From Smithella sp. PtaU1.Bin162 (GTDB lineage: Bacteria; Desulfobacterota; Syntrophia; Syntrophales; Smithellaceae), in the NCBI GenBank assembly GCA_002068015.1, contig MVRV01000077.1:1-64000 (forward strand): a stretch of DNA of 64,000 nucleotides, written 5' to 3'. Positions 1-6,532 of this stretch are shown here, piece after piece. The notes below the pieces were generated by a model. That model was not told where the DNA came from and did not search any database. It saw nothing but the letters and a program-made list of their open reading frames with translations. The position numbers were made by a program, and so were the translations under genes. Numbering within the stretch: the first letter of the stretch is position 1; each line of letters opens with the position of its first letter.

Positions 1-87
1 TTTCCCGCGATAGCAGATCTTTTACGGCAACTCGCCGCTGAAGAAAAAATGCATGAAGAGAGATTTAGGAAGTTAAGAGAGAAATGA
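1..87 (+). CDS. C-terminal end of a ferritin-like/rubrerythrin-type protein (5' end outside window)
   Basis: Only the last 28 codons are present, open from base 1 to a TGA at 85-87. The visible helix contains LAAEEKMHEERF, which resembles the last helix of ferritin-like diiron proteins (rubrerythrin family), where E and E-x-x-H residues bind iron. The family call rests on this short motif alone. A strong change in base composition begins downstream, so this may be the last host gene before the accessory block. Confidence 0.5.
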   Translation, partial: FPAIADLLRQLAAEEKMHEERFRKLREK

Positions 88-139
88 TTTATACCCACGT
101 TTTAAGCAAAGACGACCATGGCGTTCGAAGTCCTTTTGT

Positions 140-166
140 CGGTCTTATACAGACTATATAAGACCG
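140..166. repeat. Inverted repeat around the first GTCTTATACAGA copy
   Basis: Arms CGGTCTTATA (140-149) and TATAAGACCG (157-166) are perfect reverse complements around a 7-base centre. The central TTATACAG-A-CTATATAA is itself a near palindrome and matches the third copy at 281-297 (TTATACAG-A-CTGTATAA) except for one base. A dimeric DNA-binding protein site is the simplest reading. Confidence 0.6.
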
Positions 167-277
167 ATGCGAAAGATGACGCTTTGAAGTTTACCAGGTT
201 GATTTTATGTAATAATAGCTGCAATATTGGAAACATGGTAAAACGTCTTATACAGAAGGAAGCAGTCTGTGTTTGCT

Positions 278-297
278 GTCTTATACAGACTGTATAA
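278..297. promoter_or_regulatory. Candidate operator palindrome before the Nmad3-like gene
   Basis: GTCTTATACAG-A-CTGTATAA contains a perfect 8+8 bp palindrome around a central A (281-297). It overlaps a TATAAT-like hexamer at 293-298, about 36 bp before the proposed ATG at 334. A regulator bound here could block transcription of the two-gene unit. No matching -35 element at ideal spacing was found, so the promoter itself is uncertain. Confidence 0.45.
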
Positions 298-333
298 TCA
301 TTGTTCGGCGCGAAAGCATCGACAAGGTACACG

Positions 334-1011
334 ATGAGCAAAGCCCTATTACTGAGAGTTGGCATCGATTCGGGGTGCGGTGGCACGCTGGGACCGATCT
401 TTCCGGACAGCACGTTCGAATACGTGCCCATACCAGAAAGTCCGAAATACGTAGGTCCACGAAGTGTGTTCTACCGTGACTTGCCGGCGCGCCACTACGG
501 CACGCTGGCGCAATACGTTCCCGCCCGATACCGTATGGCGGCTGCCCATTACGATCCGGAGTTTGAGACCTTCACTTACGGGGATCCGACCCGAAATAAG
601 CGCGCCCAACTCCTTCGCCTTATCGATGGGGATCTATTGATATTCTACGCAGGGCTATGTCCGGTTGGATATCGGGCTGCAAGCCGACTCTATATCATCG
701 GCTACTTCACTGTTGCGTCCGTGGAAAGTATGACGGCAACGGACTCCTGGCCCCCGACGAATTATCCGCACATGCTCGGGAATGCGCACCTCCGCCGCAA
801 TCGGCCCGATGACGGCTTGGTTGTGGTATGTGGGCAGACTCGGGCGAGTAGGTTGCTCGATCGAGCGATTGCGATCTCCGATGAGGCGCAACGTGCCACG
901 CCCGAGACCGAAAAGCGAATGGGCATCCGTGGGTCCCTTATGCGCGCTATCGGAAGATGGGTTCCCCAGGAATGTATCGATGATGTTTTACACATGATTA
1001 TCCAGCGATGA
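334..1011 (+). CDS. Nmad3-type putative nucleotide modification protein
   Basis: This 225-residue protein starts MSKALLLRVGIDSGCGGTLG and continues with an IPIPE motif. Those features match my recollection of Nucleotide modification associated domain 3 (Nmad3), a family predicted from phage and bacterial neighbourhoods to take part in DNA base modification; its biochemistry is not established. I chose ATG 334 because the conserved N-terminus begins there; an in-frame TTG at 301 would add 11 poorly conserved residues. The gene overlaps the next one by ATGA at 1008-1011, which implies translational coupling. A 60-base sample (361-420) is about 63% G+C, well above neighbouring host genes (about 48% at 5041-5100), so acquisition by transfer is likely. 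Confidence 0.65.
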   Translation: MSKALLLRVGIDSGCGGTLGPIFPDSTFEYVPIPESPKYVGPRSVFYRDLPARHYGTLAQYVPARYRMAAAHYDPEFETFTYGDPTRNKRAQLLRLIDGDLLIFYAGLCPVGYRAASRLYIIGYFTVASVESMTATDSWPPTNYPHMLGNAHLRRNRPDDGLVVVCGQTRASRLLDRAIAISDEAQRATPETEKRMGIRGSLMRAIGRWVPQECIDDVLHMIIQR

Positions 1012-1580
1012 ACTACAGAATGGCCGAAGAAGAACGGATAAAGCGGGTATTGATCTATAAGAGGACGCACGAGGGCGATCCTGATCCCGCAATGGGCGTG
1101 TTCGGGAATCATTGCTGCATGGGGACAGTTCGCGGATGGAACTATGACGCAGTAATTGGTGTTGGAGGGACAAGGCCATGGCCTCAATACCAGGGGATCG
1201 CGGAGAAGCTCAACTGGATCGGGATCGGTCCACGCAGGAGTGGTGGTGTACGCCGTCCCAAAGTGGCCTTCGACCATTTTTTGTATGACGGCCAGAAAGG
1301 CCCGATGCTACTCGACATCGCGCCAACCCTAGCACAACGAATGTATCGCAAGAATGCGAGGCTGCTCATTGCCACGCCATCCTCTTCGGAGTGGTCGGAT
1401 GTTAAGAACATTCTCGATCTTGCGAGGACCGCGCCGGCTTCGGGTCAACTCACGGGCGCGCGTCGACGGAACTTGCACGAGAAGGCCGACGAATGCCATT
1501 CAGACTCTTGTAGTTCAACGTCGGCGGTTCGTAAAACCGAACAAGAGAATCCAGCCGACGCCAAAGAACATCGCGGCTGA
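1008..1580 (+). CDS. Conserved protein of unknown function coupled to the Nmad3-like gene
   Basis: The 190-residue product has a well-ordered first 140 residues with motifs such as IYKRTHEGDPDP, GVFGNH, VIGVGG and WIGIGP. I cannot assign a family. The GTHG-type glycine turns and the fixed coupling to the Nmad3-like gene suggest a shared pathway, possibly nucleotide or DNA base modification; that is inference. The last 35 or so residues are low in pattern and the stop codon lies inside the attC-like hairpin at 1536-1595, so the C-terminus is probably read-through into recombination-site sequence. An internal ATG at 1020 is an alternative start, but the ATGA overlap favours 1008. Confidence 0.65.
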   Translation: MNYRMAEEERIKRVLIYKRTHEGDPDPAMGVFGNHCCMGTVRGWNYDAVIGVGGTRPWPQYQGIAEKLNWIGIGPRRSGGVRRPKVAFDHFLYDGQKGPMLLDIAPTLAQRMYRKNARLLIATPSSSEWSDVKNILDLARTAPASGQLTGARRRNLHEKADECHSDSCSSTSAVRKTEQENPADAKEHRG

Positions 1581-1595
1581 TTCTCGACGTTGGGG
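1536..1595 (+). other. attC-like integron recombination site
   Basis: The stretch has the order expected of an attC: an R''-like box ACCGAAC (1536-1542), a left arm GAGAATCCAGCCG (1545-1557), a short loop, a right arm CGGCTGATTCTC (1574-1585) and an R'-like box GTTGGGG (1589-1595). The arms pair except for one extra C on the left, like the extrahelical base of known attC sites. Read in the AAC frame it encodes NKRIQPTPKNIAADSRRW. I recall close variants of that peptide at the ends of many hypothetical proteins, as expected if attC sites are translated. No integrase gene or attI is visible, so this would be a lone or CALIN-type cassette boundary. Confidence 0.6.
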
Positions 1596-1615
1596 TGCTA
1601 AAAAAAGAAAACCGT

Positions 1616-2977
1616 ATGCAAAATATTAAATTATATAATGCACTGGCAGTATTGACAAAAAAATCATTAGAAATCATTTCAAAGTCTATTGATAAGAACT
1701 TTGTTGTCGTCAATGAAAGCACCTGGGTAAAACAAGACAACGAAACATATGTAAGGCAGGGGATGCAACGACCTTTGTGGGGGATAGTCCTTCATAAGGC
1801 AAAAGATGAAATAACAAAGACCGAAGAATTTGTAGAATTTTCTAAAATCACAAATTCAGATCAAATCATTTCTCCCCAGCTAAATACTCTAGTTGGTACT
1901 TGTATGGGACGGAGTAGGTTTGAGCTTTTCAGCATTGTTTTTAACTCATTGTCTCCTTTCTTGACAGATACAGAAATAGTCAATTTTGATGATCAGATAT
2001 TCAAAACGGAATATTCAAAAATAGAAAAAGCATTATATTCAGACAAAATTGAATTAGAGAGACTAACCCCATTATGCGGGTTCTTGACAGATTCCCCCAA
2101 CTTTGTGCTTGATGATAAACTTTCTATCGTAAAATTATCTGACCCCGAAGTACTTCAGATGCTGAGATTGGGGATAAAAATAGGAGATACTTTCGGTCAG
2201 GAAGACTTCATCCATCATATACATCAATTTGCCATAAAATTAACATACGACCTTCCTAAGATTGCTGGAGATGGGGACATCCAAGGAAACATCGATGCGC
2301 ATATTCCCTATGTAAATGGCACTCTCGAACAAAAATTGCTTAGTGCACTTCGGTTGTTTAAAGAAGGTAAAATCTACGCATTAGGTACTGTTGTTAGGAG
2401 TAACAGCATATTTAACGTAGGAGTTTCTTACAACCTTGGGACTACATCGAGAGCTTTTATAGAGAATAAATTCCAACTATCTGAAACCGAAAGGGATAAA
2501 TTTATTAAATTCTGGGAAGTGTATCAAGGAACGAATATTCCAGAAAACAATTTTTTGTCTGTAGCAATTCGAAGATTTAGTCAAGCAAATGAGCGGGTAA
2601 GTACTGAAGATAAGATTATTGACCTTTTCATAAGTGCCGAGGCTCTTTTCTTAAGTTCTGGGGGCAGCTTCCAAGGTGAATTGAAATACCGTCTATCTCA
2701 CAGGGCTGCAATGTTTCTTGATGATGAGAAAGACAAGCAAAGAGAGGTCTTTAAGTTTATGCAAAAAGCATATGATGTGAGAAGTGCGATTGTTCATGGT
2801 ACTGCACTTAACCTTCCCAAAAAAGATGATGGCATGCCTTACTTGCTCGAAGAATTTTGCAAACGCTTAGAGTCCGACCTCCGCGTTGCAATAAATAAAA
2901 CAATCAAACAGGCATCAACGGCGAAAAATCCGAACAAAGTCTTAGAATGGGATTCGATTATCTTTCCTTCAGGGTAG
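1616..2977 (+). CDS. ApeA-like HEPN domain protein (putative defence RNase)
   Basis: This 453-residue protein has an uncharacterised N-terminal two thirds and an all-helical C-terminal third of ApeA-like HEPN type. That part has a DKIIDLFISAEALF helix, a YRLSHRAAMFL helix and an R389-SAIV-H394 motif matching the HEPN RxxxxH catalytic signature. HEPN proteins of this kind are usually RNases or toxins in anti-phage systems. ATG 1616 was preferred to GTG 1595 because the GTG lies within the attC-like R' box. The gene is AT-rich (about 23% G+C in 1981-2040), in sharp contrast to the gene pair before it, so the two were probably acquired separately. Confidence 0.65.
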   Translation: MQNIKLYNALAVLTKKSLEIISKSIDKNFVVVNESTWVKQDNETYVRQGMQRPLWGIVLHKAKDEITKTEEFVEFSKITNSDQIISPQLNTLVGTCMGRSRFELFSIVFNSLSPFLTDTEIVNFDDQIFKTEYSKIEKALYSDKIELERLTPLCGFLTDSPNFVLDDKLSIVKLSDPEVLQMLRLGIKIGDTFGQEDFIHHIHQFAIKLTYDLPKIAGDGDIQGNIDAHIPYVNGTLEQKLLSALRLFKEGKIYALGTVVRSNSIFNVGVSYNLGTTSRAFIENKFQLSETERDKFIKFWEVYQGTNIPENNFLSVAIRRFSQANERVSTEDKIIDLFISAEALFLSSGGSFQGELKYRLSHRAAMFLDDEKDKQREVFKFMQKAYDVRSAIVHGTALNLPKKDDGMPYLLEEFCKRLESDLRVAINKTIKQASTAKNPNKVLEWDSIIFPSG

Positions 2978-2982
2978 GACGG

Positions 2983-3081
2983 GGGACGCCCTTAAGAAAT
3001 TAAGTATCTAAGAGCGGTTTGCCTTAAAATAGTTTACAGTGAAGGAATAAAAGCAATAACTTAAATACTTAAGGGCGTCCC
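2983..3081. repeat. Long inverted repeat after the HEPN gene
   Basis: GGGACGCCCTTAAG (2983-2996) is a perfect reverse complement of CTTAAGGGCGTCCC (3068-3081). Pairing continues inward with few mismatches through AAATTAAGTAT and its partner near 3056-3067. The 71-base interior encodes nothing. It could act as a bidirectional terminator, but the length suggests a MITE or REP-type element, perhaps mobilised by a Y1 (RAYT-like) transposase elsewhere. Confidence 0.65.
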
Positions 3082-3103
3082 GTATGGACGGCTAATTCCA
3101 TGT

Positions 3104-3119
3104 CCTCCGCTGGCGGAGG
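3104..3119. repeat. Small palindrome before the DUF559 gene
   Basis: CCTCCGC-TG-GCGGAGG forms a 7-bp hairpin and is followed at 3121-3132 by GTCACAAAGTGAC, a second short palindrome. Together they resemble REP units and end just before the ribosome-binding site of the next gene. Confidence 0.5.
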
Positions 3120-3149
3120 TGTCACAAAGTGACGGAGGTGGAAGATCAA

Positions 3150-3599
3150 ATGACTTTTGATGTCTTTAATAATTGTGGTTATAACAAGAATCTAAGATCG
3201 CTTGCCGGTAATTTACGTCGTAATATGACAAAATCGGAATCATGCTTATGGAAATATGCTTTGAAAGCTAAACAACTTAAAGGCTATCAATTTCGAAGGC
3301 AAAGACCTGTCTTGAATTATATTGCTGATTTTATATGCAAAGAATTAATGCTGATTATAGAGGTTGACGGGATTACTCACGATGTGGAAGTTTCATCAGC
3401 CAAAGACAAAAAACGTGAAGAGGAACTTAGCCGGGCAGGTTTTAAAGTAATTAGATTTACCGACGAGGAAGTATTAATAAACATGGCAGGTGTCATAACA
3501 GCAATTGAGAAAAATATTGAAACCATAGAAGCGTCCACCCCCTCAATCCCCCGCCGGCGGGGGACAGGCAAAGCAAATAATGACGGGAGAGTTAATTGA
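3150..3599 (+). CDS. DUF559 domain protein, endonuclease (Vsr-like) fold
   Basis: The 149-residue product matches DUF559, a family related to very-short-patch-repair and other PD-(D/E)xK-type nucleases. Residues consistent with the active site are E30 in the MTKSE motif, D60 in YIADF and E71/D73 in IIEVDG. Such single-domain proteins are often found beside repeats and mobile DNA, and their substrates are unknown. I chose ATG 3150 because GGAGGTGG (3134-3141) sits about 8 bases upstream; a GTG at 3129 would lie within that repeat region. The last 20 codons include a perfect 18-bp palindrome (3547-3564), so the C-terminus was probably created by a repeat insertion. Confidence 0.75.
   Translation: MTFDVFNNCGYNKNLRSLAGNLRRNMTKSESCLWKYALKAKQLKGYQFRRQRPVLNYIADFICKELMLIIEVDGITHDVEVSSAKDKKREEELSRAGFKVIRFTDEEVLINMAGVITAIEKNIETIEASTPSIPRRRGTGKANNDGRVN
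3547..3564. repeat. Perfect 18-bp GC-rich palindrome inside the DUF559 3' end
   Basis: TCCCCCGCC and its reverse complement GGCGGGGGA are adjacent, forming a REP-like palindrome that the gene reads as SIPRRRGTG. Repeats of this shape are often scattered in deltaproteobacterial genomes. That is family knowledge; copy number here cannot be seen from one window. Confidence 0.65.
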
Positions 3600-3688
3600 G
3601 GTACAGTATCTTTTCGGGAATGACAAAATAGATAAATTGCTGCAGTTTTGTTCAATCCTTGATATATGCGGCGTCATAATTTTTAAAT

Positions 3689-4531
3689 TTAAAAATTTTC
3701 CTGCCAGCTGACCATGTAATCCAGTGAGTTCTTCTTGGGAGGGTTCTCGCTGATCTTCCAACTGCCTGAAATACCAATTTCCTTTGCCGTATATTCAAAA
3801 TGGTTCATGGCTATGCCCATGTCGAGATCCTGAATGGGTACCTCCCGTAATGTATAACCGAAAGCCCGATCCAGATAAAAATGAAAAGAATTACCGGTGT
3901 TATCAAGCACGATACGCCAGGGTTGCTTGTTGGAAGCCGACGGCGCCAGCCGGACATTTTCCAGCGCTTCGGCATATTTCCCGGCCTGTTCCTCGGTGAG
4001 CGGTGTCGTAAAATCTCCGGCAAAAAACATCTCCGGCCAGGGTTTGCGAAAATTGGACCCGGCAAAGCGGCGGAATATTTTTTCCATGAACGATTTTTGA
4101 TCGGTGGGATAACCTATCGGGCTTACGGCCGGAAGGAGTTCGTCATCGGAGCGGTTGATGACTTTAGCAAAGCCGCTTGCGTTGAAAGTGCCCGCAAGCC
4201 AGCAGGTGCCGAGCCCGAGTGCCGTCGCCTGCAGGATCAGAGTTTCCATACAGTAACCGTAATCAACTACTGCGTTATCGGCTTTCTTTATTTTTCCGGC
4301 GAGAAATAGCCGCGCATTTTTGATGACGCCATAAGTACCGGTATTTTTCCACTCTTCGGGTGAGGATATATCCGGATTGATTAAACGGAATAAAGGTTTG
4401 TTGCCGAACGGTCCCGCATGCTCTTTAGTGACGATGCTTGCAAACTTCTGCAGTATTTCTTCGTTAAGCGGTTGCAGCGCATACGTCCGGCAGGAGATGC
4501 GTTTTTTGATCAGTGCGGATATTTCCGGCAT
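3689..4531 (-). CDS. Nitroreductase family protein (TM nitroreductase type)
   Basis: The 280-residue product starts MPEISALIKKRISCRTY, the FMN-binding RxSxRxY region of nitroreductases, and has two related halves like the putative TM nitroreductase family (PF14512). The LILQATALGLGTCW helix and the APSASNKQPWR loop are typical flavin-contact segments. It probably reduces a small quinone, nitro or flavin substrate with NAD(P)H; the true substrate is unknown. A ribosome-binding site AGGGGGA precedes the start on the minus strand. It is transcribed away from nnr. Confidence 0.8.
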   Translation of the reverse strand: MPEISALIKKRISCRTYALQPLNEEILQKFASIVTKEHAGPFGNKPLFRLINPDISSPEEWKNTGTYGVIKNARLFLAGKIKKADNAVVDYGYCMETLILQATALGLGTCWLAGTFNASGFAKVINRSDDELLPAVSPIGYPTDQKSFMEKIFRRFAGSNFRKPWPEMFFAGDFTTPLTEEQAGKYAEALENVRLAPSASNKQPWRIVLDNTGNSFHFYLDRAFGYTLREVPIQDLDMGIAMNHFEYTAKEIGISGSWKISENPPKKNSLDYMVSWQENF

Positions 4532-4609
4532 AAAATCCCCCTAAAATTGTTGTTGGCAAAATTGCCGGGTAAATGTACTATAAGTAACCGGTAAAGAAAA
4601 ACGTTTTTA

Positions 4610-4775
4610 GCAGGCTGCTGAAAAAGGCTCCCGGCACACGCCGGGCAGGCATATGCGCAGTAAATCCGGCGAATGCCGGATACGCTTCGGCTCTCGCTGC
4701 TCACGTACCTCTAAAGTACGCTCCGCCGCTCGATTCTCGCGATGCCTTGCCTCTGAACCTTTTTGAGCAGCCTGC
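4610..4775. mobile_element. MITE-like large hairpin A (166 bp)
   Basis: The ends GCAGGCTGCTGAAAAAGG (4610-4627) and CCTTTTTGAGCAGCCTGC (4758-4775) are inverted repeats with one mismatch. Inside are smaller hairpins (CCCGGC..GCCGGG near 4631 and CCGGC..GCCGG near 4667) and a central ACGTAC-CTCTAAA-GTACGC. No gene is encoded. It resembles nonautonomous elements common in deltaproteobacterial intergenic regions, and its centre matches that of hairpin B at 53124-53246. Confidence 0.65.
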
Positions 4776-4863
4776 CGGTGGAATATTGAAAAATACTTAT
4801 CTGCTGCGTTTAGGTATATTTATAAACGATGCTATTTCGGTTGCAAAGACTAAATAATGCTTT

Positions 4864-4891
4864 GTAGAGACGTTGCATGCAACGTCTCTAC
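4864..4891. repeat. 28-bp REP palindrome, copy 1 (perfect)
   Basis: GTAGAGACGTTGCA is followed directly by its exact reverse complement. The same unit recurs at 6537-6564 and 7659-7686, always between genes, so nnr and the polyprenyl synthase are each bracketed by copies. The palindrome could form a hairpin in transcripts from either strand. Confidence 0.85.
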
Positions 4892-4966
4892 TTCGTAAAA
4901 ATTACCACCGATCCCCACTTAATGGGTACAACCGTGATTTTTACAGGTTTTGACGAGGAGAGATAT

Positions 4967-6532
4967 ATGAAACTAGCCACTGTCGAGGAAATGCGTTTCC
5001 TGGATCGCTCCGCCATGGAGAAACTGGGGATCAGTGAAGAAATCCTGATGGAGAATGCCGCTCTCGCTTCGATCAGGGTACTGCAAAGAGAAATAGGAAT
5101 CTCCGGTAAAAAATTTGTCGTCTTTTGCGGTTCCGGTAACAACGGTGGTGACGGTCTGGCCGTAGCCCGCCTTATTCATTCGAACGGTGGCATGGTAAAA
5201 ATATTTCTCACCGGTGACAGGAAAAAATATCGCGGTGCGGCCAAAACGAATCTGGACATTATTTCCAGATTGCCTGTTTTGGTAATTGATCTCCGGGCGA
5301 CGGCGGATGCGCGAAAAGATGTGATGCACTGCGACGCCGTCATTGATGCAATATTCGGCACAGGGCTTGACCGCGAGGTTAAAGGATTGGCTGCCGATGT
5401 TATCGGGCTTGTCAACGCTTGCCGTCATAAGGTTATATCGCTCGATATTCCTTCCGGTGTTAACGGCAATACCGGAGAAATTATGGGTGCGGCGGTCAAG
5501 GCCGATTATACGGTAACCTTCGGCCTGCCGAAGATAGGCAATATTCTTTATCCCGGCCATGAACTGTGCGGGAAGCTTTTTGTGACACATATTTCTTTCC
5601 CTCCCTCGTTTTATGCAAGCGATGATCTCAAGGTGGAAATAAACGGTTATGTGGCGCTGCCGCCGCGTCCGGCGGAAGCTTATAAGGGATCGATGGGTGA
5701 TGTCCTTTTCATTGCCGGGGCTGCCAATTATTACGGTGCGCCTTATTTTGCCGCCATGTCGTTTATGAAATCGGGTGGCGGCTACGCCAGACTTGCCGCT
5801 CCGCAATCCATTATTTCCACCATGGCGAAAAAAGGTCGGGAAATAGTTTATCTGCCGCAGGAAGAAACGGCTGCCGGAAGTATTGCTCTGAAAAACAAAC
5901 AACAATTGCTGACGGCGGCAAACGGTGTTGATCTGGTGGTTATCGGCCCCGGTCTTTCTTTGCAGGAGGAGACAGCCCGCCTGGTGAAGGAGCTGATAAG
6001 TAAAATCAAGATTCCTCTTTTAATTGATGGCGACGGACTTACTGCCTTAGCCTCTGATCCTTCTATTCTCCAAAAGCGTAAGGCGCAAACGATCCTGACG
6101 CCTCATTTGGGTGAAATGGCCAGGCTTACCGGAAAATCCGCCGCGGAAATCAGTAAAAATAAAATTACAATTCTACAGGAGACGGCTAAAAAACTTAAAG
6201 CCGCGATTGTCTTGAAAGGTGCGCATTCTTTGATCGGCCTGCCCGATGGCCGTGTTTATGTAAATTTAAGCGGCAATGCCGGAATGGCGACAGCCGGCTC
6301 CGGTGACGTGCTAACCGGTTGCATTGCAGCCATGTGCGGGATGGGGCTCACGCCGGGTGAGGCAACGCGCAAAGGTGTTTTTCTGCACGGCTATGCGGGT
6401 GACCTCGCGGCTCACAAAAAGGGTGCTGATGGTATTACGGCCAGGGATATTATGGAATTTTTACCACAGGCCATGAAAAATGACCGGGCCGGAAATATCG
6501 AAGCGGAATATTTCGCTCCGCCGGTAATTTGA
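4967..6532 (+). CDS. nnr: Bifunctional NAD(P)H-hydrate epimerase / ADP-dependent NAD(P)H-hydrate dehydratase
   Basis: This 521-residue enzyme repairs hydrated NADH and NADPH. The N-terminal YjeF_N epimerase domain (about 1-210) carries GNNGGDGL at 57-64 and the C-terminal ribokinase-like dehydratase domain (about 225-510) carries AGSGD at 443-447 with D447 as likely catalytic base. Length and domain order match the standard fused bacterial enzyme. ATG 4967 was chosen because GACGAGGAGAG lies just upstream and the conserved MKLATVEEMR starts there; the reading frame stays open further upstream, into the REP palindrome. Confidence 0.96.
   Translation: MKLATVEEMRFLDRSAMEKLGISEEILMENAALASIRVLQREIGISGKKFVVFCGSGNNGGDGLAVARLIHSNGGMVKIFLTGDRKKYRGAAKTNLDIISRLPVLVIDLRATADARKDVMHCDAVIDAIFGTGLDREVKGLAADVIGLVNACRHKVISLDIPSGVNGNTGEIMGAAVKADYTVTFGLPKIGNILYPGHELCGKLFVTHISFPPSFYASDDLKVEINGYVALPPRPAEAYKGSMGDVLFIAGAANYYGAPYFAAMSFMKSGGGYARLAAPQSIISTMAKKGREIVYLPQEETAAGSIALKNKQQLLTAANGVDLVVIGPGLSLQEETARLVKELISKIKIPLLIDGDGLTALASDPSILQKRKAQTILTPHLGEMARLTGKSAAEISKNKITILQETAKKLKAAIVLKGAHSLIGLPDGRVYVNLSGNAGMATAGSGDVLTGCIAAMCGMGLTPGEATRKGVFLHGYAGDLAAHKKGADGITARDIMEFLPQAMKNDRAGNIEAEYFAPPVI

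Follow-up and report, generated by a model that had tools for sequence, protein, structure and literature searches.

What is the G+C-rich pair of genes at the very start of a contig of Smithella sp. PtaU1.Bin162, how did it come to lie there, and what might its products do? The pair sits within the first 1.6 kb of our window, by which we mean the whole stretch of 64,000 nucleotides that was analysed: bases 1-64000 of the 70,903-base contig MVRV01000077.1, beginning at the contig end, in a draft genome of 191 contigs. An initial annotation had described an Nmad3-like gene tightly coupled to an unrecognised, conserved partner, had regarded the unit as imported, and had proposed it as a candidate for a new DNA-modification or anti-phage system.

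Two co-directional genes in a G+C-rich unit

Both genes are read from the forward strand and are joined by an ATGA overlap, the stop codon of the first and the start codon of the second both falling within 1008-1011. The first, the Nmad3 gene (334..1011), encodes 225 residues; its frame is open to 1011 from a TTG at 301 or an ATG at 334, and we prefer the ATG because a cassette boundary, described below, lies at 303. Its product matches the Pfam family Nmad3 (PF18754) with 97.6 bits (E 1.2e-27; gathering cut-off 27) over profile positions 1-200 of 247, and this profile search bears out the original assignment. It belongs to a short 'VGID' subfamily, which is about 22% identical to a sister 'SRKGFD' branch, and its invariant polar residues are R8, D12, H72, D74 and D100. 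The Nmad3 profile found nothing convincing among PDB sequences, and the protein matched no PADLOC model at E up to 1. To our knowledge, Nmad3 and Nmad2 are names only, to which no demonstrated biochemical activity is attached; a literature search by family name or Pfam identifier (for Nmad2, by titles) found no work on either family, and beyond this search we do not assert that the pair has never been published.

The second gene, hereafter the partner gene (1008..1580), encodes 190 residues and carries all three motifs that had been picked out in it, GDPDP, GVFGNH and WIGIGP. In a 25-row alignment, its 'YKRTH.GDP' family has YKRTH.GDP, FG, CM, R and W as invariant elements (with K18, R19, H21, D24 and R42 as the invariant polar residues) and two nearly invariant C-terminal cysteines. 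The description of the partner as unrecognised yet conserved was apt: it recurs in other genomes, and it has no usable family match, with none in Pfam or PADLOC at E up to 1, none in PHROGs, nothing useful among PDB sequences, and a single insignificant match in NCBIfam (E 0.13). Sequence homology between the two proteins themselves was considered but found no support, as the score of their profile comparison was reached by 161 of 200 column shuffles in global and by 139 of 200 in local mode.

The unit is conspicuous in its base composition. Its G+C content is 56.2% in 303-1592, against 43.8% for the window; none of the 612 sliding 1290-bp stretches between 1600 and 64000 is as rich (maximum 51.7%), and the flanks lie at 38-39% on both sides. 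Import, as first proposed, is upheld, and the vehicle can be named as well: an integron gene cassette. An Rfam search over positions 1-6000 of the window gave no match.

An integron gene cassette behind a putative attI-like site

The assignment of the unit to an integron gene cassette, spanning approximately 303-1589, is well supported by the arrangement of sequence elements around it; the cassette lies behind a putative attI-like site. At the left, the contig edge cuts a rubrerythrin-like gene, of which the 3' end remains (1..87, forward strand, stop 85-87); its match to NCBIfam NF045767 (E 6.2e-4, profile 117-143 of 194) is far under the cut-off because only 28 residues are present. In a different frame follows what appears to be the C-terminal remnant of an integron integrase, IntI (72..161, forward strand, stop 159-161), of which 23 residues match positions 291-313 of the 315 of TIGR02249 (integrase_gron; E 8.5e-4, 18.8 bits). 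TIGR02249, whose cut-off for a whole IntI is 265, is the sole NCBIfam model listed at E up to 10, and a search of PDB sequences with the remnant gave no match. Since weak TIGR02249 matches to other tyrosine recombinases occur in all 14 of 14 control genomes, none of them over the cut-off, it is the position and company of the putative remnant that lend it credence. The putative attI-like region (142..302, forward strand) consists of three repeats with the core GTCTTATACAGA at 142, 245 and 278, spaced by 103 and 33 bases, whose 20-base copies are 100%, 70% and 95% alike; the crossover point comes next.

The left boundary of the cassette itself (303..1589, forward strand) is G|TTCGGC at 303, and its right boundary is the G at 1589 in GTTGGGG. 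Its predicted attC site (1536..1595, forward strand), which overlaps the end of the partner gene, has an R'' box ACCGAAC at 1536-1542, an R' box GTTGGGG at 1589-1595, and an imperfect L''/L' stem, AGAATC(C)AGCCG / CGGCTGATTCT, with an extrahelical base. This is the only site in the first 8 kb that was detected by a purpose-made attC detector, which requires R'', R' and paired arms at a score threshold of 8 and has a background of 0.09-0.43 sites per 10 kb per strand in Markov-shuffled sequence. As a single strand, the stretch 1508-1596 folds better than all of 200 shuffles (z -4.2), and its minimum-energy fold pairs 1516-1523, not R'' with R'.

The cassette boundaries recur in a second, independent copy of the unit (locus L017), in which the two genes are fused. 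The DNA similarity between the two copies, judged by eye from the global alignment of 303-1593 in the window with L017, spans GTTCGGC (303) to the GTTG of the R' box (1589), and the G|TT boundaries are common to both, set in different flanks. Two attC sites flank the L017 copy, at 1329-1406 (score 8.4) and 2628-2686 (score 11.6); stretches of this type fold less well (z -2.4, reached by 4 of 200 shuffles, and z -0.9, reached by 38 of 200). Moreover, in both copies GTTCGGC, at the left end, can pair with the R'' box of the attC that belongs to the same cassette, fully in L017 and in six of seven bases in the window, as expected had a circular cassette been inserted.

These observations also bear on the explanation that the unit is a decaying passenger or an assembly artefact at the contig edge. 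Such an origin would fit the reduction of IntI to its last codons and a window that starts at a contig end of a 191-contig draft. Against this, neither reading frame is interrupted, both genes can be aligned with relatives along their length, flanks of 38-39% G+C adjoin the unit on both sides, and the independent relative has the same boundaries, so that we consider this explanation very improbable.

The same genome holds further parts of integrons. On contig C26 there is a second array (L016, 4855-8300). Its C-terminal IntI remnant matches TIGR02249 at positions 267-315 (E 5.2e-22); attI-like repeats with a spacing of 104 bases come next, and then small unrelated genes that have attC sites behind them, of which the one at 6051-6124 is clear. 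An intact IntI gene lies on contig C125 (L015, 3346-4356; 435 bits against the cut-off of 265); no attC was detected within 12 kb behind it, and there is one weak match upstream. The end of this gene is overlapped by a tadA-like deaminase gene, recognized by eye. Broken integrase genes are common according to an excerpt of one survey, in which they make up about a third (PMC2426708).

Right behind the cassette, a gene for a 449-residue protein (1628-2977) has a weak match to phrog_28161 (E 8e-7) and no Pfam match over the cut-off; since the detector found no attC between it and 8 kb, this gene may stand at the end of the array. It is followed by a stretch of about 100 bases (2983-3081) with perfect 14-base inverted ends, GGGACGCCCTTAAG. 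On contigs C52 and C172 the same ends recur, again at a spacing of 85 bases, and the genome holds nine exact end matches, against none for a reversed control; the stretch thus looks like a small repeated element. Beyond it lies a gene for a DUF559 protein (3129-3599; E 8.9e-33), which also matches the MTES_1575 nuclease family, though more weakly.

Distribution and pairing of the two families

Scanned by pattern with an alignment of three partner sequences, the species-genome collection yielded 27 partner loci, including a 22-residue match at a contig end (L043) and two loci with the partner in two frames (L033, L042). By record name, they come from Deltaproteobacteria, beta- and gammaproteobacteria, Bradyrhizobium, planctomycetes, a Spartobacterium, an Acidobacterium and a cyanobacterium. 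Nmad3 adjoins the partner in five of them and is broken in two of these five; the remaining 22 have no adjacent Nmad3. The arrangements differ: in L017 the two are naturally fused into one chain of 394 residues, counted from the ATG; in L018 Nmad3 lies upstream of the partner on the same strand; in L019 the two converge; in L034 only a fragment of Nmad3 lies downstream of an open partner gene; and in L035 Nmad3 follows in broken pieces behind a shortened partner, both being damaged. On the megaplasmid pHG1 of Cupriavidus necator, the order is partner before Nmad3, with an overlap. In the gene table of PLSDB, which is incomplete, this partner (L004, 6004-6528) has no entry, and the adjoining Nmad3 is called hypothetical.

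Counted anywhere in the genome, Nmad3 is present in seven of the 27 partner-locus genomes and was found in none of the other 20. Among 297 sampled genomes from the window's phylum, Nmad3 occurs in six and the partner in two, one of which is the window's own, and both partner copies lie beside or are fused to Nmad3. The association is therefore well above what the 2% frequency of Nmad3 would lead one to expect, but it is not obligatory. Three Nmad3 loci (L057, L049 and L059) have no partner within the stretch examined; for L049, a partner lies elsewhere in the genome. In L057 (genome G013, 97-2223), Nmad3 lies directly 3' of a gene pair that, by eye, looks like HigBA. In phage records no partner was found, and among plasmid records only C. 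necator H16 appeared, twice; viral contigs gave no loci with the partner alone as the query and four with its alignment.

The gene-neighbourhood survey and the profile search on which the initial annotation had staked its reading thus find the pair conserved elsewhere, in several arrangements, and the first protein recognized as Nmad3; the tight coupling is recurrent, up to natural fusion, without being obligatory. The evidence for the cassette is good, and so is that for the pairing. The idea that the partner is mainly an integron gene found no support: attC-like matches lie near six of 26 other partner loci (L019, L021, L024, L028, L033 and L037), where the two background figures predict about one to four in some 100 kb, which leaves no clear excess.

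Many integron cassettes are toxin-antitoxin modules, and two small overlapping genes in a cassette setting, found in reversed order in relatives, call such a module to mind, in which one protein would be toxic and the other neutralizing; a ParDE-type pair even lies about 0.4 kb from the pHG1 pair. Each gene is found without the other, however, in 22 of 27 partner loci on one side and in the L057, L049 and L059 stretches on the other, Nmad3 is broken beside an open partner in L034, and both are damaged in L035. Likewise, the natural fusion into one chain would be unusual for a toxin-antitoxin pair. We therefore think it improbable that the pair is of this kind.

Relation of the partner to Nmad2

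The partner is not the only family that keeps company with Nmad3. In the sister 'SRKGFD' branch, Nmad2 adjoins Nmad3 in five of nine loci (L044, L053, L054, L068 and L069), all over the Pfam cut-off; the nine comprise L044, L052-L054 and L065-L069, and the sequence of L065 ends 241 bases behind its Nmad3. In the phylum sample of 297 genomes, Nmad2 occurs in seven, Nmad3 in six and both in three. No Nmad2 was found in the partner-holding loci, and among 25 partner members none has the Pfam Nmad2 profile (PF18753, cut-off 26.1 bits) listed as a match with an E of up to 1.

Profile comparisons hint at a relation nonetheless. Aligned with hhalign, partner and Nmad2 profiles reach probabilities of 1.6-7.5% (P 0.005-0.03), or 2.5-2.8% for 28 partner against eight Nmad2 sequences. 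Their score was reached by none of 200 column shuffles in global and by one of 200 in local mode, while for Nmad2 against Nmad3 73 and 79 of 200 shuffles reached the score. As column shuffling also destroys the periodicity of secondary structure, this likeness is suggestive only, and the partner may possibly be a diverged counterpart of Nmad2.

Two further loci show Nmad3 in other company. In the genome that holds the fusion, Nmad3, an OLD/AriA-like AAA ATPase and Nmad2 stand in a row (L080, genome G198, contig C8, 308-3416, reverse strand), possibly a larger version of the Nmad2-Nmad3 unit. On a viral contig (L060, 5998-7353), Nmad3 is fused to a C-terminal domain of another kind, about 210 residues long and unrecognised. 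The idea that this domain is a relative of the partner found no support: in the comparison with the partner, one of 100 local shuffles, across no more than eight columns, and 63 of 100 global ones reached the score, and in the comparison with Nmad2 five of 100 did so globally and 51 of 100 locally.

Taken further, the partner could be an unrecognised member of the Nmad group, and Nmad3 together with either Nmad2 or the partner could form a compact two-domain sensor of modified nucleic acids, a nuclease-free defence module that spreads as a cassette. We regard this extended proposal as conceivable but rather unlikely.

Predicted folds

Structure models of the partner (24 rows; pLDDT 83.0, pTM 0.73) and of Nmad3 (11 rows; pLDDT 77.5, pTM 0.75) were compared with the PDB. 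With Foldseek, neither has a match at E <= 0.001. For Nmad3, rank 1 is the EVE protein 2p5d (MJECL36; E 0.038, prob 0.80). By our own reading, 36 of the 50 rows listed are EVE, ASCH, YTH or McrB N-terminal domains, where we take PH1033, PSPTO5229, TTHA0113, TRIP4 and similar entries to be EVE or ASCH proteins; the other 14 are unrelated (DpnI, nitrososynthases, ToxA, LOV, phage Mu and others). On realignment with VIA-align 2, 2p5d is again best (Z 6.4, 115 residues, 4.3 A), in a list with PH1033, ASCH proteins, THYN1 with 5mC DNA, the restriction enzyme VcaM4I, YTH domains and the McrB N-terminal domain, to which DrmAB is the clear exception.

For the partner, the two methods differ. Among the 50 Foldseek matches listed there is no YTH or EVE entry; they are a mixture of proteins, at the head of which stand DrmAB (E 0.53 at prob 0.10, and a further value of prob 0.23) and a lipoxygenase. 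When VIA-align 2 was applied to the Foldseek candidates, the 50 rows listed comprised 49 YTH entries and the EVE protein 2p5d, at Z 6.0-6.8; a small number of proteins accounts for many of these YTH rows, and two, titled only as RNA-binding protein or RNA complex, were taken as YTHDC1 from their numbering. A comparison of the partner model with a viral structure library gave nothing interpretable. All these fold scores lie below Z 8, the caution line of VIA-align 2, under which a match may mean only a common arrangement. An EVE/ASCH/YTH-type fold is favoured since two separately made models agree on one superfamily, and the reading of the pair as binders is weakened by the Foldseek rows of the partner. 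As to the 'unknown fold' that had been ascribed to the partner, its model weakly resembles YTH and EVE domains, and its profile weakly resembles Nmad2.

According to an extract of one study, EVE-like domains bind modified bases, and fast-evolving representatives sit in defence contexts (PMC7641849). By the same extract, YTH and EVE domains also bind RNA (PMC7641849), which would accord with a cassette that serves the modified tRNA, rRNA or DNA of the cell itself, as is thought for slow-evolving EVE proteins. The patchy distribution in the phylum (partner in 2 and Nmad3 in 6 of 297 genomes) and the mobile settings, namely integron, megaplasmid and phage contigs, speak against such a housekeeping role, and we give it little credence.

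A putative reader of modified bases

The proposal that the unit modifies DNA found no support: the realigned models point modestly to binders of modified bases, and no known modification enzyme was matched in Pfam, NCBIfam or PHROGs. Our preferred, though tentative, interpretation of these models is that the pair is a two-part reader of modified bases, perhaps defensive, rather than a DNA-modifying enzyme. Nmad3 and the partner would assemble into one complex of two subunits, which their pairing in several arrangements, including a natural fusion, makes likely. Each subunit would have a PUA-like fold of the EVE/ASCH/YTH type with a base-binding pocket, as the modest structural similarity suggests. 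Judging from the genomic context, the complex might bind DNA or RNA at a modified base, hypermodified phage DNA being one example, and might then block or mark the bound nucleic acid, acting as a small stand-alone module of defence or sensing. The Nmad2 neighbours of sister Nmad3 genes, and the operon with an OLD/AriA-like ATPase between Nmad3 and Nmad2, speak for this interpretation; the 22 of 27 partner loci that lack an adjacent Nmad3 speak against it.

The invariant polar residues of both proteins could equally form an active site, in which case Nmad3, perhaps with the partner as a second subunit, would alter a base or a nucleotide. R8, D12, H72, D74 and D100 of Nmad3 are residues typical of active sites, the partner has K18, R19, H21, D24 and R42 as its conserved set, and the Pfam name Nmad carries the original prediction of such a function. 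Yet the realigned models modestly resemble binding domains, and neither gene matches a known modification enzyme in Pfam, NCBIfam or PHROGs; we therefore judge an enzyme to be rather unlikely.

Indications of the suggested anti-phage role are indirect: several partner genes in other genomes lie near restriction or defence genes, as judged by eye, and neither protein has a PADLOC match. The neighbours, picked by eye within a few kb of the partner, are examples and do not measure enrichment. Seven of ten neighbour proteins matched PADLOC models, namely a type IIG restriction-modification protein (L037), LmuA (L034), PDC-S06 (L025), a TIR protein (L020), a PDC-S02 nuclease (L041), a GIY-YIG protein (L018) and Mrr (pHG1); those from L029 and L039 and a second protein from L034 had no match. 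In a Pfam scan of another set of neighbours, those from L019, L020 and L033 had no match and those from L024, L027 and L030 only weak ones. In an excerpt of a survey based on machine learning, NMAD is one of the domains given for predicted defence systems and is again abbreviated in a figure legend on validated systems, without a statement of which Nmad family is meant (PMC13092281); judging from this excerpt, some Nmad protein may already have been tested in defence. Altogether, defence is suggested by the mobile settings and by some of the neighbours.

With the fusion, the recurrent partner and the fold prediction, a family of no known function becomes one for which a binding assay can be designed. 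Should the pair read modified bases, it would represent a small, mobile form of modification-dependent immunity, which would explain why such genes travel in integron cassettes.

Comparison with known systems

Integron cassettes that carry defence genes have reportedly been described by Kieffer et al. and by Darracq et al.; the unit in the window is likewise a small import, a cassette with an attC site, whereas the defence role of its pair is only putative. In Treponema integrons, as an extract describes them, intI points towards attI (PMC3607928), and the IntI tails of the window genome likewise read towards the cassettes. In the window, by contrast, intI is reduced to its last codons, and the intact IntI lies on contig C125.

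On the protein level, binders of the EVE, YTH and ASCH type, such as 2p5d, THYN1, VcaM4I and the McrB N-terminal domain, resemble the predicted models of both window proteins in fold after realignment, if at modest Z and without detectable sequence similarity, and the defence-type settings reported in the cited extract for fast-evolving EVE proteins (PMC7641849) are a further likeness; the window unit differs in having no attached nuclease or GTPase. Finally, the Nmad2-Nmad3 pairs (PF18753 and PF18754) are a parallel in gene arrangement. Their Nmad3 belongs to the sister branch and that of the window to the short subfamily, and the partner differs from Nmad2 by its YKRTH.GDP motif and the absence of a Pfam Nmad2 match; like Nmad2, however, the partner sits with Nmad3, and its profile aligns with that of Nmad2 above the level of shuffles, though at low hhalign probability.
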